From positions 1 through 22,813 of IMG/VR virus record IMGVR_UViG_3300025079_000029: a DNA stretch of 22,813 bases; one strand, written 5' to 3'. A program made the translations under genes and the position numbers. The DNA is from a virus. The notes below the pieces were generated by a model, which was not told the DNA's origin, searched no databases, and saw only the letters and a program-made list of their open reading frames with translations. Below, piece by piece: positions 2,892-21,543 of the stretch (position 1 is the first letter of the stretch; every line of letters starts with the position of its first letter).

Positions 2892-2908
2892 TTAATTTAA
2901 TTTAATTT
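2889..2908 (-). repeat. AAATT pentamer repeat ending in the GNAT start codon
   Basis: On the coding strand there are three copies of AAATT followed by AAATG, whose ATG is the start codon of the GNAT-like gene. The stop codon of the upstream 629-aa gene lies inside the repeat. There is no Shine-Dalgarno sequence, so this A/T repeat is the likely ribosome-recruiting leader. Confidence 0.7.
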
Positions 2909-4791
2909 GACGAAACAACAAACTCTGAAGCAGCTGCCCATAGTTCTTTAGGACCACCTGGTTGAGTGTTGTTATCTGTTTCTATAGTTACCGTAGCAAA
3001 ATAACCTTTAATACCTGTCATTGAGTTTCCAAAAATAACTTCACCTGCTCTAGCTGCTGACTCAGAAATAAGATTAGCTACGTATCTATTTTCTTTCCTG
3101 TTAAACCCGGCTCTTAATAATGGAGGATTTGAAGCACTTGCATTTAATCCAGTTCTTCCAAGCCCATCATACGCACCTTCTTCATAGCTAAGTACGGATA
3201 AAGATGTGCTAGAACTTGTTGTTTTATCTTGATTCTGTATAAAAGGTGGAACACTAGATGTTGGATTAGGATCAAACCCTTCAAAACCAGATACAAACGA
3301 TGTAACTTCCCAGCCATTACTACCTTGATAAGATATAGTTTTAAAATTCTTCATAACTGAAGAGTTAGGGTTGAATACAAAAGTAACGTTAGCAGGTAGT
3401 TGAGTGTTGTAAAATTTACCCCTATTGTTAGCTACTGTGTTGTCATAATGTAAATATAGCTGTTCTTTATTTAGTGAATAAAATTTATTTTTTAAACTAC
3501 CCATAAAAGTAGGTTTGAAAGTCATAAAGCTAACCCAGCCATTAATTTTTTCATCAAAAGTTATAGTTTTAAAACCACCACTAGTTATTATTGGCGGCTT
3601 TTGCTGTAAAGAAACAACGTAATTTTTGTTATGTATATCAAAACCTCCAATTATTCTACCAGAAGCTTTATTAAAAAATCTTAATAAAGTATCTACGGTT
3701 AGTGGAATTGCTGGTATTAACTCTGAAAAATAAATTTCAGTGTATAAACCTACTATTTTAACATCTACAATATAGCCAGTAACCACGGAGTAAGAATTTC
3801 CAGCATCTGCACTTAATGAAAATCCCATACCTATAACTATCTCGCCTGTTAAAGTGCTTGATATTGCTTTTATTATTATACTAGTTCCATCAGTTGAAAA
3901 ACCTAATTTACCATCAACATTGTTGGTTACAGGTTGTTCATTTATTAAAGCTAATTCATCTCTAAAAAAATCTTGCATACCATAAGTGCTTATCTCGGTA
4001 AGACCATCATTAGATAGTCTCATTATAGAGTTTCTATTTCTATCAGAAAAATATTTTCTATAACCATAGTAAGCAAACGATTCTGGGTTTGTGCTAATAC
4101 CATACTCACCTTTGTAAGGCACTATTTGACCTATAACTTTTGCTCCAGACTGTGTTTGAGTACCACCTTCAGCTGTATATATAGTATCCTTGTCTATTAA
4201 AGCTCTACTTACTTTGTTTTCTTGAAAAACTAATAGATTAGTGTCTTCAGCGTGAGTATATTGTATAGATCCATTAACTGGATCTGCAGATCTAGTTATA
4301 GTATCAGCTACAGAAAATACATTAGTTTGGTTTATTCCAGTTCTACTATTATATATACCTGAGTAGATTAAAGAATTAAATCTATGTTGTTGTAAAGGTT
4401 CTGGATCATCTAAATAAGCTCTAGCACCATAATCAGTTGATGTATTATTAAAACCTCCTCTTATTCTAGCTTCTTCAACAAACCAATTTATATTCCAAGG
4501 TGTTGTAGTGTATACGTTGTTAGTGCCGTCATTACCTAAAAATCTTACTTGGTATCCATTTCTTAAAAAACCTGGATAAGCAGTTCCAGGATAAAACTCT
4601 CCATAAGGTTGAACACCTGTAGAGCCGGCTGGACTTGGAAACGTTGGTTGAGGTGTTCCAATCCCAAGTACTGAACTAACGCCACTATCGCCTGCTAGCT
4701 TTACCTGAGGAGGCTGTTGTGCTCCATCTTGTGATGTTACTTTTTTTAGTAAATAAGAATTAAAAAAATCTACTTCTATAATTGCTGCCAT
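2902..4791 (-). CDS. Tail nozzle/muzzle-type structural protein, 629 aa
   Basis: This is a large beta-rich protein. The region around residues 185-290 contains blocks I recognise from tail stabilisation (muzzle) proteins of crAss-like and related marine phages: LLVFQENKVSRALIDKD, a KVIGQIVPYKGEYG block, and YFSDRNRNSIMRLSNDGL followed by TEISTYGM. The YFSDRNRNSI segment resembles the YWTD-type beta-propeller blade motif. The first ~60 residues are Pro/Gly/Gln-rich and probably extended. No membrane span is visible. The gene lies 30 bases after the 1241-aa tail gene and probably forms the distal tail with it. Elsewhere these blocks can form one longer chain; here they are separate genes. Family membership is fairly clear; the exact position in the tail is inferred. 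Confidence 0.7.
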   Translation of the reverse strand: MAAIIEVDFFNSYLLKKVTSQDGAQQPPQVKLAGDSGVSSVLGIGTPQPTFPSPAGSTGVQPYGEFYPGTAYPGFLRNGYQVRFLGNDGTNNVYTTTPWNINWFVEEARIRGGFNNTSTDYGARAYLDDPEPLQQHRFNSLIYSGIYNSRTGINQTNVFSVADTITRSADPVNGSIQYTHAEDTNLLVFQENKVSRALIDKDTIYTAEGGTQTQSGAKVIGQIVPYKGEYGISTNPESFAYYGYRKYFSDRNRNSIMRLSNDGLTEISTYGMQDFFRDELALINEQPVTNNVDGKLGFSTDGTSIIIKAISSTLTGEIVIGMGFSLSADAGNSYSVVTGYIVDVKIVGLYTEIYFSELIPAIPLTVDTLLRFFNKASGRIIGGFDIHNKNYVVSLQQKPPIITSGGFKTITFDEKINGWVSFMTFKPTFMGSLKNKFYSLNKEQLYLHYDNTVANNRGKFYNTQLPANVTFVFNPNSSVMKNFKTISYQGSNGWEVTSFVSGFEGFDPNPTSSVPPFIQNQDKTTSSSTSLSVLSYEEGAYDGLGRTGLNASASNPPLLRAGFNRKENRYVANLISESAARAGEVIFGNSMTGIKGYFATVTIETDNNTQPGGPKELWAAASEFVVSSN

Positions 4792-4821: not shown

Positions 4822-7800
4822 TTACCCTATAGCATCGTTAAGTTCTGATATTAAACCAGATGTAGAAGTTTCCCAGTATATATCTATTAGAGATTCTAAT
4901 GGTTTTACTTCTAATATTCCAACACATGGTTCATTAGAAAATGTAGTATCTTCTCGTCCAAACAAAGCAGCTCTTATCCCATTTAATATTGTCCCGGATT
5001 GCTCGTCTGCATCACTGTCTTCATATACTCCAAATATTCTACTATCAGAATCATTGCCTATAAAATTATTTTGAGTATTTAATTTAGCTACGGTAGGATT
5101 GCTATTAGGGTTATACACTCCTCTAGCTTCTGTTTTTCTATTTATTTCTTCTACAGCCGTAGATGCTATTTCATATTCTGCTTTTACATAAAGCCATTTT
5201 CTGTATGTACCTGGGCATGGATCTCCAAACTGAGCGTCATTAGCAATGAAAGTTTTAGAATTAAATCCTAATAGAATTGTCTCCATGACTGCTTTACTAG
5301 ATACTGAGTGGCAATCTTGTTTAATAGCAAAATCACCACAATTGTTATTAGGTGAATTGCTACCATCCCCTCGTACAGTACCACCTGTAGGTCTGCCATA
5401 ACTTGCAAATAATATTTTTGTAAAAACGCCTCCGGGAGGACATTGCATTGTTCCAGGGAATTCAAAACCGTTGTTGTTGTGCGATTGTACTAGCTGTAAA
5501 CATACTGTTCCAGTCTCTGGTGTTGCTGTTTGATTTCTTGGATTATTTGTATCTATACCCATATCAGTTACTTTAGCTATGGTTTCAACAGTTACAAATT
5601 CAGTGCCAAGATTATATTGAACACTATTATATGGTTCTAATTCATCACCTGGAGTAGTTGAACTAGCAACTACCGTAGGTGTTCTTCCAGTTATACTACC
5701 TACAAACAAGTTAGGATTTGCAACTCTTGGATATAAAATAGAATCACTAGAAGGGAAATTAGTTTGCTCAGGTTGAACTTCTTGCAGATCTGGCGGAATT
5801 TTATTTATATTATCACTTATCAATGTAATATAACTAGTGGAAGAAGAACTAGTTGCTTTAGCTCTATCTTTATAACTTTTTGGTTCTCCGCTTAATATAT
5901 TAGGAACATAAACATTGTAATAGTCTTGCTGAGTTTGTTTTACAACAACTTTGTAAGAATACCAACCAAGAGGATTAGCTTCTGTAAATAAAGTAACGTT
6001 GGCATAAATACCGGGAGACAAGTCATGCTCACCTTGTATTGTTATTGTTTTAGCGCTTTTTGAAAAATTTAATATAATTGAAGTATAAGCGCCATTGATA
6101 CTAACTCCAGAAACTGTAGAACCAAGAGCTATAAAATCATTCCAAGATTGTAAAGTATATATAGTGTTAACTCCATCTGAAGTAAAAGAAACAGCTCTTA
6201 AATTTCTTTTTCCACTATCATACAAGCCAGGATATCCATCTGCATATGTTATCGTTTCTGGTATCTTGCTGTTAAAACAAATTTTCAAAGAATTTCCAAA
6301 CCAATAAAAAGGATTATCTTCTGTGTAAGGGGCATAAACTGTAGATCCTTTAAATGTTGTACCGTTATGAACTATAGTATTATTTCCAATACTAGACTGT
6401 ATTACGTCAGATTGTCTTCCATATCTATCAGAAAGTATTAAACCAACTTGATATGTTCTGTTTTGTTTTAATGTTGCAGTAGGGTACTCTACATTAGAAC
6501 CAGCACCTATAAGAGCTGTAGCACTATTTAAATTTAAAGCAGTTAATATAAAAGTCAAAGTGCCAGTAGAGCCTGGTAAACCTGAAGTATTAAAAGTAAT
6601 TACATCGCCAATTGAATAACCACTACCTCCACTTAAACAAATTATTACATTATCTGCTTTTGATGAAGTTATTATTTCAAAAGTTGCAGTTTGATTACTA
6701 CTAGATATTGGAATTGGAGCCTGAGCGTTATATGGATAATTAATATCAGTATTAGGAGTATATGTACCTAATATTATAGATCCACCAACAGAGGCAGAGC
6801 CAGCACTACTTTTATTACTTATAGCAACTCCAAAGTCTAAAGTTAATGGTGGAGTATGTTTGTCATAGAAATTACCATATATAACTCTGTTTCCAGAAGA
6901 TGACTGAGACTTAGCTCTTACTGGTATTTTATCATAAACTCTTGTTGTTTCTCTTTCTGGAAGAACTTTTGTTGGTCTTCTTGATTGATATTCATAAGTG
7001 TAGACATAACTTGAATTAGAAGATATAGAGGTGTCGGTAACAGATACTGTTTCTAAAACTTTAAAAGCTAAACCGTTTGACTCTTTATAAAGAATATCTA
7101 TTTCTTTTACTTTTAAAGCAGTGTCTAATTGATTTACGCGGTAAGGAGTTTCTATATTCAAAGTAACGTTTGTAACTTTATTTTCAAAAAACTGAACTAT
7201 AGTACTTCTAGACATTGCCACTTCTTGGCTTTGCTTGACTCCAGCTGATTCGCCAACGGGCACTGAAAGCACGTATCCATCTTGCTTTGGTATAAAAGCT
7301 GGTTGCGTGAATGGAGATATTAAAGAATATTCACCATCGTCAAATTTAAACCTATAAGCAAATCTAACAAATCTATCTGTTAAAAACTCTTTATCTCCAG
7401 GCCAATTAGCTTCATAATTTGGGTTTTTATAATGAAACATAAAAGCAACATCTGATGATGATGCATTTGGAAAAAATCCTGTTCTAGGAGGTATTGGTTT
7501 ATTTAAATTCACTACAGCACCTCCACTTCCTAATGCAACTGATTGAACAAATACATCAGTAAGAAAACTTCCACAAGTAACTCCCATACCCACTTCTATT
7601 ATATTGATATCTTGCCCTGTTATATTAGCTGCTCTAATAAGAATCCTACTTGTGGGATTAACAGCTGTTAAGATTGAAGTAGCTTTTATCGGCACGCCAT
7701 ATGCTGTAAATGAAGGCGGTAAATACTCACTAACAGTATCAAGCATTGAAGTTGAAGTGTAAGTTATTGATCTCCATGTAGTATCGATAATAGGAGATAT

Positions 7801-8547
7801 AGGATTTCTTGGATTAGTATCAAAAGTTTCTAAAAGAGCTTGATTGCTTGAATTAATTTTTTTAATTCTAACTTGAATATTTTTATCTAAACCTACAAAA
7901 GACAAGTACATGCCTTCTATTAGATTAGCGGTTGATCCTATTAAAATATTTGATGTTATTTTGCCAACACCGTCTATTGTTTTAGTTAGTTTAGGCGTTT
8001 TATATGGGTAATATTTAGCTACTGATATTTGATCTTCTGTAGTGTAGTAACTTGAATCTGAAGCAGCTGTTTTTACATTTATTTTTCTAGGTTGATTTCT
8101 ATCATCCGTCCAAAATAACAAATCCTCTATAAGACTTATTCCTAAAATAAGATGAGTAGTAGAAAAATTTAAAAATACTCCTTTTACTAATACATCATAA
8201 GTGTCTAACAAGGTATTGTATGAAACAATATAGCAAGTAGAACCTCCTGGAGCTTGTCTTGAGAGTTGATCACTAGTAGTATCACTGTAGTTTGTTAAAA
8301 AAACTATAATTCTGTCATTAGATATATCCATGTACTTACCTATAGACGTAAGGCCGCTAACAGTACTTAACCCAAAGTTTGTTTTTAATAAATTACCTAA
8401 AATATTTTCTAAAGCACCAACGTCTTCGCCTTCTGATCTACTTACACTTACATTTTGAGCATTTCTATATTCGCCATTAGACAATAGTCTATCGTCTAAG
8501 TCTTTATTCATTCTAGACTTAATAAAAGTGTTTTGTACTTTAGCCAT
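4822..8547 (-). CDS. Large tail stabilisation/muzzle protein with inserted lectin domain, 1241 aa
   Basis: The N-terminus (VQNTFIKSRMNKDLDDRLL, then NGEYRNAQNV and ILGN) is a hallmark I know from the tail stabilisation proteins of crAss-like and marine podoviruses. About residues 60-160 hold a propeller-like blade with LLFWTDDRNQPRKINV. The remainder is beta-rich, with Ser/Thr/Asn-rich loops and Ig-like stretches. Near residues 1015-1126 there is a complete SUEL-type (galactose/rhamnose-binding) lectin domain, listed separately. The final ~110 residues continue the tail fold. There is no signal peptide or membrane span. ATG at 8547 is four bases after the stop of the upstream ring gene, with an ATTAATTAA leader. 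The protein probably forms the short tail tube or nozzle and, through the lectin, contacts host surface glycans. Confidence 0.75.
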   Translation of the reverse strand: MAKVQNTFIKSRMNKDLDDRLLSNGEYRNAQNVSVSRSEGEDVGALENILGNLLKTNFGLSTVSGLTSIGKYMDISNDRIIVFLTNYSDTTSDQLSRQAPGGSTCYIVSYNTLLDTYDVLVKGVFLNFSTTHLILGISLIEDLLFWTDDRNQPRKINVKTAASDSSYYTTEDQISVAKYYPYKTPKLTKTIDGVGKITSNILIGSTANLIEGMYLSFVGLDKNIQVRIKKINSSNQALLETFDTNPRNPISPIIDTTWRSITYTSTSMLDTVSEYLPPSFTAYGVPIKATSILTAVNPTSRILIRAANITGQDINIIEVGMGVTCGSFLTDVFVQSVALGSGGAVVNLNKPIPPRTGFFPNASSSDVAFMFHYKNPNYEANWPGDKEFLTDRFVRFAYRFKFDDGEYSLISPFTQPAFIPKQDGYVLSVPVGESAGVKQSQEVAMSRSTIVQFFENKVTNVTLNIETPYRVNQLDTALKVKEIDILYKESNGLAFKVLETVSVTDTSISSNSSYVYTYEYQSRRPTKVLPERETTRVYDKIPVRAKSQSSSGNRVIYGNFYDKHTPPLTLDFGVAISNKSSAGSASVGGSIILGTYTPNTDINYPYNAQAPIPISSSNQTATFEIITSSKADNVIICLSGGSGYSIGDVITFNTSGLPGSTGTLTFILTALNLNSATALIGAGSNVEYPTATLKQNRTYQVGLILSDRYGRQSDVIQSSIGNNTIVHNGTTFKGSTVYAPYTEDNPFYWFGNSLKICFNSKIPETITYADGYPGLYDSGKRNLRAVSFTSDGVNTIYTLQSWNDFIALGSTVSGVSINGAYTSIILNFSKSAKTITIQGEHDLSPGIYANVTLFTEANPLGWYSYKVVVKQTQQDYYNVYVPNILSGEPKSYKDRAKATSSSSTSYITLISDNINKIPPDLQEVQPEQTNFPSSDSILYPRVANPNLFVGSITGRTPTVVASSTTPGDELEPYNSVQYNLGTEFVTVETIAKVTDMGIDTNNPRNQTATPETGTVCLQLVQSHNNNGFEFPGTMQCPPGGVFTKILFASYGRPTGGTVRGDGSNSPNNNCGDFAIKQDCHSVSSKAVMETILLGFNSKTFIANDAQFGDPCPGTYRKWLYVKAEYEIASTAVEEINRKTEARGVYNPNSNPTVAKLNTQNNFIGNDSDSRIFGVYEDSDADEQSGTILNGIRAALFGREDTTFSNEPCVGILEVKPLESLIDIYWETSTSGLISELNDAIG
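5170..5505 (-). other. SUEL-type galactose/rhamnose-binding lectin domain within the 1241-aa tail protein
   Basis: This segment covers about residues 1015-1126. It carries the ordered signature of the SUEL/Gal_Lectin family (Pfam PF02140 in my knowledge): MQCPPGGVF, then ILFASYGRPTGGT, then NNNCGDF and DCHSVSSKAVME, then FGDPCPGTYRKWLYVKAEY. The ASYGR and FGDPCPGTY blocks are the family's most conserved parts. Five cysteines remain. The cysteines usually found in the 'KSC' position and at the very end of the domain appear to be absent, so not all classical disulfides can form. A role in glycan binding at the host surface is inferred from the family. Confidence 0.8.
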
Positions 8548-11784: not shown

Positions 11785-13245
11785 TTAAGCTCCTTTGAAC
11801 AACACGAAGTTATTAGCAGCTTGAGTTACTAAACATCTTTCAGATAAGAAATGTACAGACATTGCATCTAAATCAGAAGTGTAAGCTCCTCCAACTGAAC
11901 CAGTAATCCAGTTTTTAAATCTTCGATCTTCAGTTTCAGAAGCTCTATATCTTACGTGTAAGAAAGGACGTCTAATGTTAGATCCTAACATTTGATCGTA
12001 TACTGTTGAAGTTCCAGCAGGAACTAAAACACCATCAATCTCTTTGTCTAATCCTCTTGTAGAAGCATCGTTTAAGTATTTCCAGTCAGTCTTGTAGAAG
12101 TCATAAGAACCTCTTCTGAATCCTGAAAATCCAAAGTTTAATGCCATTTCTGATTCGTTATCAAATAAACCATAAGAAGCAGCTTGAGTAGAAGCATAAC
12201 CTCCACCAGCCATAGCGCCGATCATATCATCAAAGTCAAGAGCCGTAGATCTTGATAAAAATAACATGTTTTCTTCAATAGCACCTTGCTTATCTAAGTT
12301 TTTAAGAATTTCATCAAAATCACCTAAAGCACCTGAACCAGGAGCAGCAGCACCAGAAAATCCAGAGTATATATTACCTCTTTTTTCAATAGCAGCAAAC
12401 ATACCTTCAGTACCTAGTATATTGTCTCCAGATAAAGAAGAAGCATTACCATTAGCTAGTTTTGAATCAACACCTTCAACCATCATCATTTCAAGATAAT
12501 CTTCAAAACGTAATCTAGTTTCAGACTCAGCTTTTAGATACCATAAGTATCCAGATGTTCCGTCTTCAGTAGCAACTTCAACCCACCCAATTTGAGCAGT
12601 ATCAGAACCGTTGATTTCGTACTTATCTTTGATAATTACAGGTCTATTAGCATACTGAGTAAAAGATGGCTCAATAGAACCGTCCATACCAGGTGTTCCT
12701 TTTTTAAATTCAGAACCGTATACAAACATGTTAATACCTTTTGTATTTAATAAACCAGCAGGTAGTGTGTCAGCACCGTATACTTTAGCAGTAAATTTAG
12801 TGTTACTTGTAGTTAAACTAGTTACATAAACTTTAGCAGTTACTAAACCAGTAGCTTGATCAGATAAAAGAACAGTTTGACCTACTCTAATAGCTATTTC
12901 AGTTGTTTCTGTATCTGTTAAATCAGGCTCAATTGTATAAACAGCACTAGCTGGACCAGTAATATTAGCTTCTAGTCCTTTGTAGGCTACGTGTAATCTA
13001 TTTTGTTCAGACCAAATTACTTGATCAGAAGTCATAGGCATTTCAGCTCCTACCATTCTCAAGAAACCAGACAAAGTCCTGTTTCCGTATCTCTCCACTT
13101 CTTGCTCATAAAGCTCAGGAAGATATTGTTGTGCGAAAGTTCCACCACCACCTGACGAATTGAAATCTAAGAAGTTTCCAATTGTTGTCATTCTAGCTTG
13201 TGAAGGAACTATACTTGCGGGAAAACTCCCACCAGATAAACTCAT
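11785..13245 (-). CDS. Major capsid protein, 486 aa (HK97-fold expected)
   Basis: The length (486 aa) and the position after portal and scaffold fit the major capsid protein. The N-arm is Gly/Ser-rich (SGGSFPASIVPSQARMTTIG). Conserved blocks at residues 42-92 include LPELYEQEVERYGNRTLSGF and DQVIWSEQNRLHVAYKG, which I recognise from capsid proteins of crAss-like phages. The middle (SGYLWYLKAESETRLRFEDY) and the C-terminal segment (RRPFLHVRYRASETEDRRFK) look like capsid helical-spine and P-domain pieces. No protease cleavage site is evident. The leader has two AAAAACT repeats and no Shine-Dalgarno sequence, and the gene starts 12 bases after the scaffold stop. Its codon spelling is a little less A+T-biased than that of its neighbours by eye, as expected for a highly expressed gene. 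Confidence 0.88.
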   Translation of the reverse strand: MSLSGGSFPASIVPSQARMTTIGNFLDFNSSGGGGTFAQQYLPELYEQEVERYGNRTLSGFLRMVGAEMPMTSDQVIWSEQNRLHVAYKGLEANITGPASAVYTIEPDLTDTETTEIAIRVGQTVLLSDQATGLVTAKVYVTSLTTSNTKFTAKVYGADTLPAGLLNTKGINMFVYGSEFKKGTPGMDGSIEPSFTQYANRPVIIKDKYEINGSDTAQIGWVEVATEDGTSGYLWYLKAESETRLRFEDYLEMMMVEGVDSKLANGNASSLSGDNILGTEGMFAAIEKRGNIYSGFSGAAAPGSGALGDFDEILKNLDKQGAIEENMLFLSRSTALDFDDMIGAMAGGGYASTQAASYGLFDNESEMALNFGFSGFRRGSYDFYKTDWKYLNDASTRGLDKEIDGVLVPAGTSTVYDQMLGSNIRRPFLHVRYRASETEDRRFKNWITGSVGGAYTSDLDAMSVHFLSERCLVTQAANNFVLFKGA

Positions 13246-14466: not shown

Positions 14467-16854
14467 TTACTCTAACAATGGGTCTACTTGATTTTTTTCA
14501 AAATTAGTTGGTAATAAATCATTTTTTCGTTGATCTATCATTTGGCTTTGTTGTGTGGCTTGTATTCTTGTTCTTTCGTCTTTACGGTTTTCTATTTCAG
14601 CTTCTTTATTGCTTATAATATCTAAATCCATTTGTTTTAGTTGCTGGTCATAACCAAACTGAATCTCCATTAACTGTCTTTTAATTTCAGCTTCTTGTTG
14701 TATTTTGTTTATACCAAACTCAGATTTACCTTGTTCTATTTGTAAAGTTGTTTCAGCTAAAGCTTGTTGTTTTTGCATTTCAGCTAAAGCTCCTCTTTCA
14801 GCTGCTTCTGCATTTGCATTAGCCTGTGCTTGAATATTTGCTTGTTGAGCTTTTTGATCAGCTTCTTGTTTTTGTTTTCTTTTTATTTTAAGAAGTTGAT
14901 TAGCTAATTTAAGATTGTTAATTTGTCTAATATCTATAGCGTCTTCTAGGTTTATTCCACCTTGTTTCATAGCAACTTGAATATTTTGCTCTAGTTGAGC
15001 TTTTTCTTCCTCGTCAGGTACTAGCTCTAAATATATCCCAAAGTCAGCCATATTCAGCTTATGCATGTCTTCTAGTGTTCCAACATTATATGTGCTTAAA
15101 CTAGAATTAAGAGCTGATTTAGTTAAAGGATATTCTAAAGCATCTGATATTCTTAAAGAAATATTTTCACATGTTTTAACTGTTAAATACAATAGTGATT
15201 GTAGTAGGTGCTTAGTTGCTACGTTTGAACTAGCTGCAGCAAGTTTTTGTAAGCCTACTAGCGAATCTGAATTAGGCATAGTACCATCTCTAGCCTCGTT
15301 AAGCCCCGTAACATCTCTCATCATTTGTAAATAATATTGATAAGTCTGTATTAAAGCTTGAGTTTTAGCACCACCTGAAGAAGTTTGAAGTTCTTGAATT
15401 GGTATTTTGCCTCTATTAACGTCGCCATCTTGTGTTAAAGATCTACCTAATATACTACCAGTTTGGAAATACATATTAAGAGCTTCTGCAGGATTATAGT
15501 TTGTTCCGTTTCCTAAGTCAACCTCTGCCAAACCATCTACATCTAAGAAAACACCATCAGGTACTATTCTTGATAATACTTGTTGTAGTTTTAAATGAGT
15601 TAGTTGTATCATGTCAGCAAAACCAGTCATTCTACTAACTAAAGATTCTATACGCCCTTTATACATTTTAGGAGCGCAAAGCGTATAATTCATATTAACC
15701 TTAACAACATTAGCTTCAGGCCTAACCATGTTTCTTGCAAGTTCCCATCTTAACATTTTATCATGTCCTAAGACTTTAGCGCCTTGATACAAAACCTCTA
15801 TAGATCTATAAACTCTTTGAAAGTTATCATTTTCTGGAGGGTTAAACTCGTCATTTTTTTCAATAGCTTTTTCTAAACCAGTAGCTGTTTCTTTTATTTT
15901 AAAAACTTGGTTTTGATAAGTCTTATATTCAAAGTATAATACTGGAACATTGTTAGTATCGTTTCTACCGTTGAATTGATAAGCATAATTACTTCTGTTA
16001 GGATATTTTTCTATTTCTCTTAATTCTTCATCAGTTATATTAGGAAATTCCTTTTTTAATTCTCCTAAATTAATACTCTTTACTTCTCCTATATACCATA
16101 GATCTTGAAAATTAGGATCTTCTGTATAAGAATAAACTAAATCAGCTGGATCAACGTATTTTACTGTAACACCTTCTGATAGATTAAAATCTGTTTTAAC
16201 AGCACTTATTCCTAAAACAACTAAATCATTAGCCATTCTTCTTTTTACTAACTCATACTTATTAAAATCTAAAGTATTGTTAATTGCTTCTTCTTCTGCT
16301 ATTTCAACCGATTGCTTATAATCTAACTGCATATGTATATCTAACTCTTCACGATTCTGAGGTAATTCCTCAGGGTTTGAAGTAGAATACATATTTAATC
16401 CTGTAACTTGTTTTATTTGTTCAATAAGCTTTTTAGCTTGTATATCTCTTAACAAGTGCTCAGCATATTTAGTTCTAGCAGCTAAAGAAACAGGATCTTG
16501 AGCATAAGCTTTTATATCATAAAGCTTAGTGTCTAATCCATTAACAACTATATCTACAAATTTAGGTATTATAGGAACAGGTTTCCAGTCTAAATTTAAA
16601 TAAGATAAATCTCCATTTATTGCTAGTTCGTCTTTGTATTTTTGAACAGACTGTTCTCCTCTTGCATATAGTCTTAAGTTTCTAAAGTTATTGTAGTTAG
16701 TATTAAACCTACCACTTACACCAGTACGAGTACCAGCGAACCAATCACCTTCAATTGCTCGACCAACTTGTCTGCCGTAGTCTAAGCTGCTTTTGACTTC
16801 ATCAGATACTACCTGATCAGGGAAAGAACTACCGTTTTGAGTACTTATTTGCAT
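14467..16854 (-). CDS. Portal protein, 795 aa
   Basis: The protein forms the ring at the capsid vertex through which DNA is packaged and ejected. Position immediately after the large terminase and length near 800 aa fit. Recognisable blocks include WFAGTRTGVSGRFNTNYNNF, RLYARGEQSVQKYKDEL, LDWKPVPIIPKFVDIVVNGL and VEIAEEEAINNTLDFNKYEL (clip/wing region). A stem/crown region around residues 440-540 contains GLNEARDGTMPNSDSLVG. The last ~140 residues are a long Gln/Ala/Glu-rich coiled coil (barrel-like), which is characteristic of the large portals of crAss-like podoviruses. The start ATG directly abuts the terminase stop, behind an AATAAA-rich leader. Confidence is high. Confidence 0.88.
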   Translation of the reverse strand: MQISTQNGSSFPDQVVSDEVKSSLDYGRQVGRAIEGDWFAGTRTGVSGRFNTNYNNFRNLRLYARGEQSVQKYKDELAINGDLSYLNLDWKPVPIIPKFVDIVVNGLDTKLYDIKAYAQDPVSLAARTKYAEHLLRDIQAKKLIEQIKQVTGLNMYSTSNPEELPQNREELDIHMQLDYKQSVEIAEEEAINNTLDFNKYELVKRRMANDLVVLGISAVKTDFNLSEGVTVKYVDPADLVYSYTEDPNFQDLWYIGEVKSINLGELKKEFPNITDEELREIEKYPNRSNYAYQFNGRNDTNNVPVLYFEYKTYQNQVFKIKETATGLEKAIEKNDEFNPPENDNFQRVYRSIEVLYQGAKVLGHDKMLRWELARNMVRPEANVVKVNMNYTLCAPKMYKGRIESLVSRMTGFADMIQLTHLKLQQVLSRIVPDGVFLDVDGLAEVDLGNGTNYNPAEALNMYFQTGSILGRSLTQDGDVNRGKIPIQELQTSSGGAKTQALIQTYQYYLQMMRDVTGLNEARDGTMPNSDSLVGLQKLAAASSNVATKHLLQSLLYLTVKTCENISLRISDALEYPLTKSALNSSLSTYNVGTLEDMHKLNMADFGIYLELVPDEEEKAQLEQNIQVAMKQGGINLEDAIDIRQINNLKLANQLLKIKRKQKQEADQKAQQANIQAQANANAEAAERGALAEMQKQQALAETTLQIEQGKSEFGINKIQQEAEIKRQLMEIQFGYDQQLKQMDLDIISNKEAEIENRKDERTRIQATQQSQMIDQRKNDLLPTNFEKNQVDPLLE

Positions 16855-19080
16855 TTATTTTATTATTTTTGAAAAAACTCCGTCGTTATCATAACGTTTA
16901 ATACCTAATTTAATGTGTTTAGTTAATCTTTCTGGAACAGGTTTATATTTATTTTTATTACAAGCCATAATAGCTAAGCCTGAACTTATAGTAGCATCAT
17001 GCTTTGTTCTATTATTTATGTTAAATTTACCCCAGTCCTCTAAAGTTTTTTGGTGATACATATCGCCATAACCTTCACCTATTAAACCTACATATGTTTC
17101 TATATAAGATTCCACAGCCGCAGCGTGTGCTTGTTTAATGTCTTCACTTGAATTAGGTATTCCACCTATTTCTTTTTCTGTTGTAGAAAGCTTATTCCAA
17201 ATTTTATCAGGACGATTCATTGAAAAACCTCTATAACCTCTACGTTTAAAATAGTACAATAGTCTTGGTTTGTTATTTTCACAGAGTATTGGCATACTAT
17301 AAAATACGCAAGCCATCAACACGTCTTCAAAAAATATTTCAGCAGTTTGAGGTCTAGCAATATATTCAAGAAAAAAATGATTAGGTGGTGCGTCTTCCAT
17401 ACTAAACTTGGTCAAGCCGTGCAATGCTCCATTAGAACCTTTACCATCTACTGTTCCACTTATATCGTAACTATCACAACCAAACGCGCCTATATGTTCA
17501 TTACCAGGATATTTAGTTCCATTTTTCATTATTACTTGATTTTGCAAGTTTACAGGTGGAACCCAAGATATCATAAATCTACCATCTTTGTTAGGATAAA
17601 ATCTTACGCTAGTATCTTTTACTCCACTAACCCACTGAAAACTACCTCTAGTAACTGAAGATATATTATTTATTTCAGCGTTGTAATCTATTTGTTGATA
17701 TATTTTAGTTAAGTTAAACAAGCTGTCTTTAGCTTCATCTCTAAAAGCATGCTGTTCTGTTCTTGGAAATTGCCTGTAATATTCATTTAAACTATCAGGA
17801 TCATCCTTTAATCCATCTACTTCGTTCTGCCAGTGCTCAATAACTCCTGTTGAAATTTTTTGACCATCTGCTCCTTTAATGTTATTTCCTTCTCTAATGA
17901 AAACAGGTGATCCGTAAGTATCCATGAATCCTTCGTAGTTCCATTCCATAGGGATGAAAAGAGAATAGAGTCCAGAAGAAGTTTGTCCGTTTTTATTTCT
18001 TTTTGTAACGTCTGAAGAGTAATAGAGTTTTTTGAAGTTGTTTCCACCTTTATCTAATGCGTTTGAAGTTGAGCCCATCATACACTTGCCTACGATTCTT
18101 GATCCTAGCCTTAGTGTTGTTTTTGTAACTCGCCAGTTGTTTAATATGTTGTCCGGTCTTTCCCATTTTCCGCTTTCGTCGTGTGCTAATAATTTTAATT
18201 TCTCACCATCGTAAGAGTTGTCGCCGGTATTTTTCCAGTCAATAGTTGTATCAAGCCCGTCAAGTTCTTTTAGTTGCTCATTACTCTCAAGCTTTCTTCT
18301 AGTAAGTTTTGAAGCCGGAACCCTATACGCCAGTTCTGTCTTAGGACGATCCATACCGTCTTGGATTGGCTTGAAGAAAAACGGATAGTTAATGGATATT
18401 GGCACAACTTTATCTGTGAACATTTTTTTAGCATCTGCTCCAGATTTAGATAATATACCGAATCTGGCGTCACTTGATATCGTCGCTTTATTAACAAGCT
18501 CTGCCGAGGACATAAATGAAAATCCAGACCTTCTGTTTTTAAGGTAGCACATCCCGTAACATCTGTTATCTGCTTTACATGCTTCCCAAAATATATAGAA
18601 TAATCTATTTGCTTCTCTATAATCTGGTGCCCCAACGTCGATCTTTGACCACTGTAAGTACATGTAATGAGTGCCAGTGATATATGTAGAAATACCTTTA
18701 CTATAAAACCAATAACCCTCTTCTCTTCTTGTAAATTCTTTGTCAATATAATCATACCACCTTTCTTTAAAATCAGTGTCAAAATTTTCCCAGTCAAACC
18801 TGCTCTTGATTCTATTTAATTCTTTTGGATATTCTGCTTTTTCCCAATATTGTTCAGCTTTTTTTTCGCTTCGTTTATGCGATTCATATTCTGCTGGTAA
18901 AGCAATCCTGAGATTCTGTATTTCAATGATTTTTCCAATTTTCCCAGTTTTACTTATTACTATAAAGTCATACTCTTCATTATAACCATACTCCCATTTT
19001 TTATATCTATTTTGCTTAGATAATATTTTAGGGTTTACAACATCTTTAATCTCTTTCCAAAGAGTTTGTTCATAACTCAT
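16855..19080 (-). CDS. terL: Terminase large subunit (packaging ATPase and nuclease), 741 aa
   Basis: This motor pumps DNA into the prohead and cuts the concatemer. The ATPase half has a degenerate Walker A (KNRRSGFS, about residues 181-188), a Walker B (LKLLAHDE, D301/E302) and a coupling motif (MGSTSN, about 335-340). The nuclease half has an RNase H-like triad: D536 in GAFGCDSYDISGT, E601 in PILCENN, and D695 in TKHDATISS. It also has a GTVDGKGSNGALHG stretch typical of crAss-like terminases. The ATG overlaps the stop of the upstream gene (ATGA), and the stop is followed directly by the portal start, so translation is coupled. The length is within the usual 700-750 range for this group. 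No frameshift is visible. Confidence 0.92.
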   Translation of the reverse strand: MSYEQTLWKEIKDVVNPKILSKQNRYKKWEYGYNEEYDFIVISKTGKIGKIIEIQNLRIALPAEYESHKRSEKKAEQYWEKAEYPKELNRIKSRFDWENFDTDFKERWYDYIDKEFTRREEGYWFYSKGISTYITGTHYMYLQWSKIDVGAPDYREANRLFYIFWEACKADNRCYGMCYLKNRRSGFSFMSSAELVNKATISSDARFGILSKSGADAKKMFTDKVVPISINYPFFFKPIQDGMDRPKTELAYRVPASKLTRRKLESNEQLKELDGLDTTIDWKNTGDNSYDGEKLKLLAHDESGKWERPDNILNNWRVTKTTLRLGSRIVGKCMMGSTSNALDKGGNNFKKLYYSSDVTKRNKNGQTSSGLYSLFIPMEWNYEGFMDTYGSPVFIREGNNIKGADGQKISTGVIEHWQNEVDGLKDDPDSLNEYYRQFPRTEQHAFRDEAKDSLFNLTKIYQQIDYNAEINNISSVTRGSFQWVSGVKDTSVRFYPNKDGRFMISWVPPVNLQNQVIMKNGTKYPGNEHIGAFGCDSYDISGTVDGKGSNGALHGLTKFSMEDAPPNHFFLEYIARPQTAEIFFEDVLMACVFYSMPILCENNKPRLLYYFKRRGYRGFSMNRPDKIWNKLSTTEKEIGGIPNSSEDIKQAHAAAVESYIETYVGLIGEGYGDMYHQKTLEDWGKFNINNRTKHDATISSGLAIMACNKNKYKPVPERLTKHIKLGIKRYDNDGVFSKIIK

Positions 19081-20714: not shown

Positions 20715-21167
20715 TTATTTATTTATTTTTGTTATTTTTTCAGCACCACGACTTCCGAAGTATGCTACGTAAACTGTTATTAATAGTGTTTTAAGTAATT
20801 CTACCCATGCTGTGTCTACTTCAAATTGTAAATGAAAAGAATCTATACACATTATAAGTGTAGAAGCAAAAGTTAAAAATATAAGAGCTAGCGGGCGTGT
20901 GTTTTTAGAAAGCCACGAATCACTTTTCATATCGTTATTCCACCTGCTAGATACATTGTTCATTTCAATTATATCTTGTTCTAATAGTTTCATAGCCATT
21001 TCTTTATCTTTGGGCTTAATACTATTATCACTTGCTATAATATTTTTTACTATTCCTAATCCTCCTTGATCTGGTAAAAAGTTACCTACTGTTTGTAATA
21101 ATTTAGGAGCTTTGTTTTTTAAAAACTCTCCTATTTTAGTTTCTTTAAATAATTTCTTCTTCGCCAT
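20715..21167 (-). CDS. 3TM-holin-family membrane protein, 150 aa
   Basis: This is probably a lysis holin or a related inner-membrane protein. The first 80 residues are soluble and helical. Residues 78-92 read NDMKSDSWLSKNTRP, followed by a membrane span (about 91-109, LALIFLTFASTLIMCIDSF). A loop and a second span (about 121-138, WVELLKTLLITVYVAYFG) end in SRGAEKITK. The SDSWLSKNxRP...IFLT and LLKTLLxTVYVAYFGxR blocks are characteristic of the GTA_holin_3TM family (PF11351 in my knowledge). Only two strong spans are visible. It overlaps the upstream metallopeptidase-like gene by 23 bases. In this family a lysis role is often assumed rather than proven. Confidence 0.78.
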   Translation of the reverse strand: MAKKKLFKETKIGEFLKNKAPKLLQTVGNFLPDQGGLGIVKNIIASDNSIKPKDKEMAMKLLEQDIIEMNNVSSRWNNDMKSDSWLSKNTRPLALIFLTFASTLIMCIDSFHLQFEVDTAWVELLKTLLITVYVAYFGSRGAEKITKINK

Positions 21168-21543
21168 TGTAAGTTATTAATCCTTTTTTTTGAAAGTTTT
21201 GAGCCATTTTATTATTACCTCTATAACCTTGTAAAACTTTATCGCTAGCTGGGTAAGATTCTTGTTCCCATGGTAAAGATCTTTTTGATTCATCTAAATT
21301 AGGACCTCTTTTATAAGACTTATCTTTGTAATAAAAAAAATCTTTATCGTAATCTAAATCTTCATCTAGCTGGTGTACTGTTTCATGTTTTACTACAGCT
21401 TTCTCCATGACTGGATCTAAATTCATATTAACAACTATACCTCCGTGGTTAGATTTACCAACAGAACCATCATCTAAATTCATGTGGTAAACAGGTATGT
21501 TCATGTCGTTTTTATTGTAGCTTGGCTTAAGTTTAAACCCCAT
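21145..21543 (-). CDS. Small HExxH metallopeptidase-like protein, 132 aa
   Basis: A zinc-binding HExxH motif (VKHETVHQLDEDLDYD; H53, E54, H57) sits in the predicted active-site helix. It is preceded by a beta-strand (GGIVVNMN) and followed by a strand (FFYYKDKSY). Downstream, PWEQESYPAS (E93, E95) could supply the third, glutamate ligand, as in compact gluzincin-like peptidases. No signal peptide or membrane span is present. The protein is short for a full peptidase but complete for a minimal one. Its place between small virion-type proteins and the holin-family gene suggests virion maturation or cell-wall/protein processing during lysis or entry; the substrate is unknown. Confidence 0.68.
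   Translation of the reverse strand: MGFKLKPSYNKNDMNIPVYHMNLDDGSVGKSNHGGIVVNMNLDPVMEKAVVKHETVHQLDEDLDYDKDFFYYKDKSYKRGPNLDESKRSLPWEQESYPASDKVLQGYRGNNKMAQNFQKKGLITYNGEEEII

Follow-up and report, generated by a model that had tools for sequence, protein, structure and literature searches.

The question raised by this locus is whether a segment within a large structural protein of a crAss-like phage is a SUEL-type lectin domain and, if so, which role such a domain plays there. The window, meaning the whole stretch of DNA that was analysed, is the IMG/VR record IMGVR_UViG_3300025079_000029, which is a linear piece 22,813 bases long. It carries a crAss-like structural module on the minus strand, in which the genes of the terminase large subunit (TerL, 16855-19080), the portal (14467-16854), the capsid protein (11785-13245) and ring-type proteins are followed by the open reading frames (ORFs) 4822-8547 and 2902-4791. 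The nearest annotated phages by muzzle, the protein encoded by these two ORFs, are Cellulophaga phages (Pervagoviridae) and Flavobacterium phages, with about 30% identity over parts of residues 1-574. Another assembly of this virus (L001) differs from the window by 12 mismatches in 16.5 kb, none of which falls in ORF 4822-8547; five of the 12 are clustered in 15 bases (393-407) near the end of gene 360-1871. Two small genes, both on the minus strand, were also recorded. One (21145-21543) encodes a possible zinc metallopeptidase, a protein that contains an HETVH (HExxH) motif and weakly matches Peptidase_Mx1 (E=0.013). The other (2493-2891) lies right after the muzzle genes, is acetyltransferase-like (GNAT-looking) and matches phrog_17252, a family of unknown function, with no Pfam matches.

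Judged by comparison with gp44 of crAss001, ORFs 4822-8547 and 2902-4791 are the two halves of one crassvirus muzzle, a protein that forms a hexamer at the tail tip and acts as its gate (Bayfield et al., PMC10172136). The first half (4822..8547, minus strand, 1241 amino acids) was assigned by its match to phrog_14478 (E=9e-52), by hhalign to gp44 and by an alignment with 12 relatives. It begins with the start of the propeller at the N-terminus, continues with the presumed IG1/IG2/crass-fold region and ends just past the conserved ETSTSGLISELN. The second half (2902..4791, minus strand, 629 amino acids) holds the rest of the propeller and was assigned by hhalign and by a match to Pfam crAss_MUZ_C, which exceeds the Pfam cut-off (E=3.6e-9). 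Residues 1-178 of the first half correspond to gp44 1-175 (hhalign, 93%) and residues 155-503 of the second half to gp44 1034-1291 (hhalign, 96.5%). The propeller parts homologous to gp44 and the conserved gene order, with the same place after the ring proteins as in crAss001, identify the protein as a muzzle, and the crAss_MUZ_C match and the alignment to gp44 bear out the initial annotation, which had placed the domain inside such a crAss-like protein. The gp44 sequence was drawn from the crAss001 genome record, because the muzzle profile gave no gp44 matches among the PDB sequences.

For the middle part of the muzzle, no significant sequence match to gp44 was found with hhalign, and an AlphaFold2 model of the 706-amino-acid crass region, computed from 14 sequences, was set aside with a mean pLDDT of 47.7. 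Since the two halves map to gp44 1-175 and 1034-1291, the SUEL-type domain lies, judged by order, in the equivalent of gp44 176-1033, which in gp44 comprises IG1, IG2 and the crass fold (PMC10172136). The crass domain is located on the tail tip and is likely to contact the cell, and muzzles vary there by insertions (Bayfield et al., PMC10172136). The window muzzle differs from gp44 in its division over two genes and in its SUEL insertion; crAss001 gave no match to the viral SUEL profile. The split is considered real and not an error, because nearly all relatives have a two-gene muzzle; in L005 (8001-12659) both halves are fused as one ORF. The position of the domain near the C-terminus, as first described, is therefore correct for ORF 4822-8547 and not for the muzzle, in which the domain is placed in the middle, since the second half is encoded by the next gene.

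The first half is closed by the conserved core motif EVKPLESLIDIYWETSTSGLISELN (4837..4911, minus strand), which was defined from the alignments with relatives. In most relatives, a long and variable C-terminal extension follows ETSTSGLISELN/EVKPLESLIDIYWETSTSGLISELN, while the window protein ends there without an extension. The extensions after ETSTSGLISELN in the muzzles of L002-L021 are highly variable, reach up to about 800 residues and represent a second hot spot for added modules. A second, unrelated insertion of the window muzzle with the GGSGYSIGDVITF motif, at about residues 582-690 (approximately 6478..6804, minus strand), is missing in most relatives in alignment A3. Motifs resembling GGSGYSIGDVITF occupy another loop in L326 and L329, which suggests that this small module changes its place among the loops.

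The segment in question comprises residues 1015-1126 of the first half (5170..5505, minus strand) and is located in a muzzle loop. It contains, in the order originally reported, ASYGRPTGG and then FGDPCPGTYRKW: the ASYGRP motif occupies residues 1048-1053 (5389..5406, minus strand), with Tyr1050 aligned to Tyr63 of latrophilin-1, and the FGDPCPGTYRKW motif occupies residues 1107-1118 (5194..5229, minus strand) in loop 2 of the lectin fold, with one extra residue beside the position of the conserved Lys. Pfam PF02140 (SUEL_Lectin) matches residues 1015-1126 with E=5.1e-6 and 27.2 bits, which is below the gathering cut-off of 31.4 bits; the corresponding domain of the related phage L325 scores 17.6 bits. 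As this cut-off is a database inclusion rule, membership in the curated PF02140 family is not claimed. With phmmer, sea-urchin SUL-I was matched at 5e-6 and the SUEL domain of rice beta-galactosidase at 5e-4.

For an independent profile, IMG/VR was scanned for the FGDPCxGT motif, which yielded 102 SUEL-like segments, 56 of them non-redundant including that of the window's own virus. The held-out profile was built from the 55 SUEL-like domains of the other viral contigs, with the window excluded, and it matched the window domain with 56.7 bits (E=1.2e-16), as opposed to 6.3 bits for the best reversed-sequence decoy. In a set of 1,097 ORFs from the window and the relatives compared at that stage, its matches were limited to the window domain and the two other copies of this gene. 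Because the 55 profile domains had been collected by FGDPCxGT, this motif was masked in a retest, in which the domain still reached 29.9 bits (E=2.8e-8) and 2000 shuffles did not exceed 11.2 bits. Used directly as query, the window domain gave no credible matches in 50,697 phage records and none in the first bacterial scan, and L110, a typical viral SUEL domain, gave no matches in the phage records either, so that homologues had to be sought by their motif. The negative results of a PF02140 search of genome records carry no weight, because this search gave no match even in a record that bears the domain. The GC content of the domain is 38.1% compared with 32.9% in the gene, corresponding to the 96th percentile among stretches of the same size, which lends weak support to a possible foreign origin.

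The fold of the domain was modelled with AlphaFold2 from 52 sequences (pLDDT 80, pTM 0.74), and the model has the fold of the superfamily, a beta sandwich that includes a single helix and two loops. In a Foldseek search of the PDB, the best 14 matches were all SUEL/RBL domains, and the next match had E=0.15. The fold Z-scores of the SUEL entries range from 12.1 to 9.2; the next entries are Plasmodium RIPR (6.9) and P113, and no entry outside the family exceeds 6.9. The nearest solved structure is the C-terminal domain of rice beta-galactosidase 1 (5iaz; Z 12.1, rmsd 2.4 over 104 residues, 33% identity), which is likewise an add-on domain of a larger protein. However, it belongs to a plant enzyme, and when the isolated OsBGal1 domain was tested, sugar binding was not detected (PMC13070324). 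The SUEL/RBL domains of SUL-I (5h4s), CSL3 (2zx0) and the latrophilins (2jx9/5afb) follow with Z 10.4 to 9.2 and share with the window domain the ASYGR and FGDPC motifs, the central helix, the Tyr and Gly of the sugar site and cysteines 1, 3, 4 and 7. The window domain differs from them in its location in a phage muzzle, in the absence of cysteines 5, 6 and 8, in the displaced Glu and Lys of the sugar site and in its Pfam score below the curated cut-off. Residues 1015-1126 thus almost certainly adopt the SUEL/rhamnose-lectin fold; the Pfam match, the held-out profile and the top PDB matches of the model, all of them SUEL, agree with the original assignment of the segment.

Animal RBLs contain eight half-cystines that form four disulfides. 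The window domain has five cysteines (residues 1016, 1036, 1070, 1079 and 1111) and lacks positions 5, 6 and 8. By order, Cys 1016, 1070, 1079 and 1111 correspond to positions 1, 3, 4 and 7 of the animal domains, the assignment of Cys 1016 being the least sure because the loop that follows it is longer in the window. In the animal domains, these positions form the pairs 1-3 and 4-7, i.e., Cys41-Cys71 and Cys83-Cys115 of latrophilin (PMC2430599). The cysteine at position 2 (1036) is kept and its partner is missing. The initial annotation had noted that the KSC-type and the terminal cysteines are absent and had suspected a disulfide-reduced variant; both are indeed missing, together with the partner of the KSC cysteine, and L001 is identical in this respect. 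However, the form is not peculiar to this phage, as the same four cysteines are found in L325 and in many Bacteroidota domains and this form is the usual one in bacterial homologues.

The insertion site is bordered by an upstream flank VETIAKVTDMGIDT (residues 987-1000; 5548..5589, minus strand) and a downstream flank GVYNPNSNPTVAKL (residues 1143-1156; 5080..5121, minus strand), which were defined from alignment A3 and the empty-site relatives L326 and L329 and can be aligned in relatives without the SUEL domain. Between VETIAKVTDMGID and VYNPNSNPTVAKL, most of the 13 relatives in A3 have a few residues, compared with about 130 including the SUEL domain in the window, and L002 carries a different insert at this site. 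Alignment A4, in which muzzles and SUEL fragments were combined, was rejected, as it forced muzzle residues into SUEL columns. A profile scan detected over 560 relatives of the muzzle; 80 of them were retrieved, and the SUEL site was fully covered in 72 of 100 loci. Among these 72, L325 (IMGVR_UViG_3300027686_000034) is the only one besides the window's virus with a SUEL domain at the muzzle site (59.8 bits, E=2.3e-17); in L326 and L329, the flanks match and the site between them is empty. The domain is therefore almost certainly a true insertion in a muzzle loop, which agrees with the proposed modular nature of the segment; the opposite case, a segment present and equally conserved in all relatives, does not apply, since most of them lack it.

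The domain is common to at least two related phages. The capsid proteins of L325 and the window are 83% identical (373 residues compared) and their muzzles 54%. Along the muzzle, the identity is 66% for residues 1-180, 49% for 181-535, 58% for 536-1014, 41% for the SUEL domain and 53% after it, which makes the domain the most divergent part of the muzzle between the two phages. The L325 domain is located at the same site and has the same four cysteines; the differences are a C-terminal extension of the L325 muzzle, about 300 residues long, and the kept spacing of the sugar-site Glu and Lys.

This sugar site was compared with that of latrophilin-1, in which Glu42, Tyr63, Gly117 and Lys120 contact the sugar and every change made to Glu42 or Lys120, even E42Q and K120R, abolished or dramatically reduced binding (PMC2430599). 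In 107 prokaryotic and viral SUEL domains, chosen by FGDPCxGT only and not by sugar-site residues, Glu is conserved in 103, Tyr in 106 and Lys in all 107. The window domain keeps Tyr1050 (= Tyr63) and Gly1113 (= Gly117). Its loop 2 reads GTY-R-KWL and is one residue longer than usual, with the column of the conserved Lys taken by K1117 in the profile alignment, which treats R as an insertion, versus R1116 in the MAFFT alignment. No window residue is aligned in the Glu column, which E1029 could fill with a shift of one residue, and in L325 both Glu and Lys stand at the usual spacing. With the canonical galactose/rhamnose site altered, binding of galactose or rhamnose by the window domain is possible but doubtful.

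SUEL domains had been described at the outset as best known from animals, a view that the motif scans do not support, as both Bacteroidota and other viral contigs frequently contain them. In such contigs, they accompany Pfam tail or Ig domains within a protein or lie close to genes for baseplate, sheath and tape measure: the domain is fused to Phage_tail_L in L075, lies beside baseplate genes in L085 and near a tape-measure gene in L123, and is found in a phage with a tail sheath in L030. The capsid, portal, ring and second muzzle gene of the clade studied here were absent from the stretches examined at all other SUEL loci. Many other SUEL matches in IMG/VR have signal peptides and proline-rich linkers, and their contigs may be cellular rather than viral; in a large group of this type among L023-L132, which clusters with Nanopelagicales/Actinomycetota, this may apply to some contigs. 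The bacterial motif scan revealed at least 54 clear SUEL domains, at least 41 of them from Bacteroidota, and in all four proteins that were checked a T9SS sorting domain was recognised, in one case with a score below the curated cut-off. Among the matches listed, Bacteroidota proteins with Por_Secre_tail (L160 from Pontibacter, L214 from Flavobacterium, L169 from Flavobacteriaceae) are closest to the window domain with about 40-46% identity, although they differ from the muzzle in being secreted and in carrying Ig, PKD, RCC1 or laminin-G domains. In a tree of 108 SUEL domains, the nearest rows among the matches listed are also Bacteroidota, a placement without support and with an end branch of 1.37 for the window, so the tree gives a tentative hint of an origin of the domain from the hosts.

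Two proteins of uncultured Caudovirales (UniProt A0A6J5PD65 and A0A6J5NGG5) are phage-encoded, already named as SUEL proteins and similar in their predicted structures (rmsd 1.5 and 2.7), but they are different proteins of other phages, and 'muzzle' does not occur in their names. In the literature searched, no account of SUEL domains in phage tails or in a muzzle was found. Judging from these records, phage SUEL domains are already present in databases, and their placement in a muzzle appears undescribed. As SUEL is common in secreted proteins of Bacteroidota and in other viral contigs, the window shows a new arrangement of known parts.

Regarding its function, the domain probably binds to the host surface. 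This role is favoured by the SUEL domains that other viral contigs have in tail or structural proteins and Bacteroidota in secreted proteins, and it is weakened by the displaced Glu and Lys and by a nearest structure, that of OsBGal1, without sugar binding. Our preferred explanation, held with slightly more reserve and still considered likely, is that the SUEL fold, an insertion in a variable loop within the distal muzzle (its IG2/crass-fold part), serves the tail-tip gate as an exchangeable adhesin for the host surface. Six copies of the domain would ring the tail tip and face the cell, where they would bind a glycan or another surface molecule of a Bacteroidota host. Binding would keep the tip on the surface and may help to open the gate, and the display of six copies would suit weak sugar binding through avidity. 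A bolder version, in which the lectin forms part of the gate so that a host glycan bound by the muzzle acts mechanically on the opening of the gate, and in which the loop is a plug-in site through which crAss-like phages exchange receptor-binding modules independently of the tail fibres, is unlikely at present.

The alternative that survives best, although rather improbable, is a structural brace or decoration, in which the SUEL fold no longer binds sugar and serves to stabilise the muzzle or to add bulk to it, a role that the rice beta-galactosidase domain may have in its enzyme. It is consistent with the displaced Glu and Lys, with the absence of the domain from nearly all other relatives and with the top structural match, a SUEL domain that changes how its enzyme behaves and for which sugar binding was not detected (PMC13070324). 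However, L325 keeps the spacing of Glu and Lys, so the site may well work in this lineage, and the domain changes faster than the scaffold, which is unusual in a buried brace. It is quite unlikely that the domain binds free or environmental glycans, such as algal polysaccharide or exopolysaccharide, and keeps the phage near its hosts instead of recognising a receptor; Ig-like domains of gut phages, including crAss-like phages, are reported to adhere to mucus and epithelium (PMC13370021), and animal RBL lectins recognise bacterial surface glycans (PMC2430599), but the position on the tail-tip gate fits a final host contact better than general adhesion. A chance resemblance or an assembly artefact, for which the Pfam score under the curated cut-off and the occurrence of the arrangement in only one other phage could be cited, was rejected as practically negligible in view of the held-out profile, the motif-masked retest, the fold matches, the identical junction in the second assembly L001 with its 12 mismatches and the independent occurrence in L325.

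With host-surface binding as the preferred role, the finding concerns a largely unsolved aspect of crAss-like phages, namely host recognition, in which cell contact by the crass domain has so far been a proposal only. A recognisable binding fold in the presumed crass part, together with relatives that have an empty site and a sister phage that shares the domain, makes this proposal testable with one small domain. Moreover, although SUEL domains are often regarded as animal lectins, viral contigs and the secreted proteins of Bacteroidota contain them as a recurrent module.
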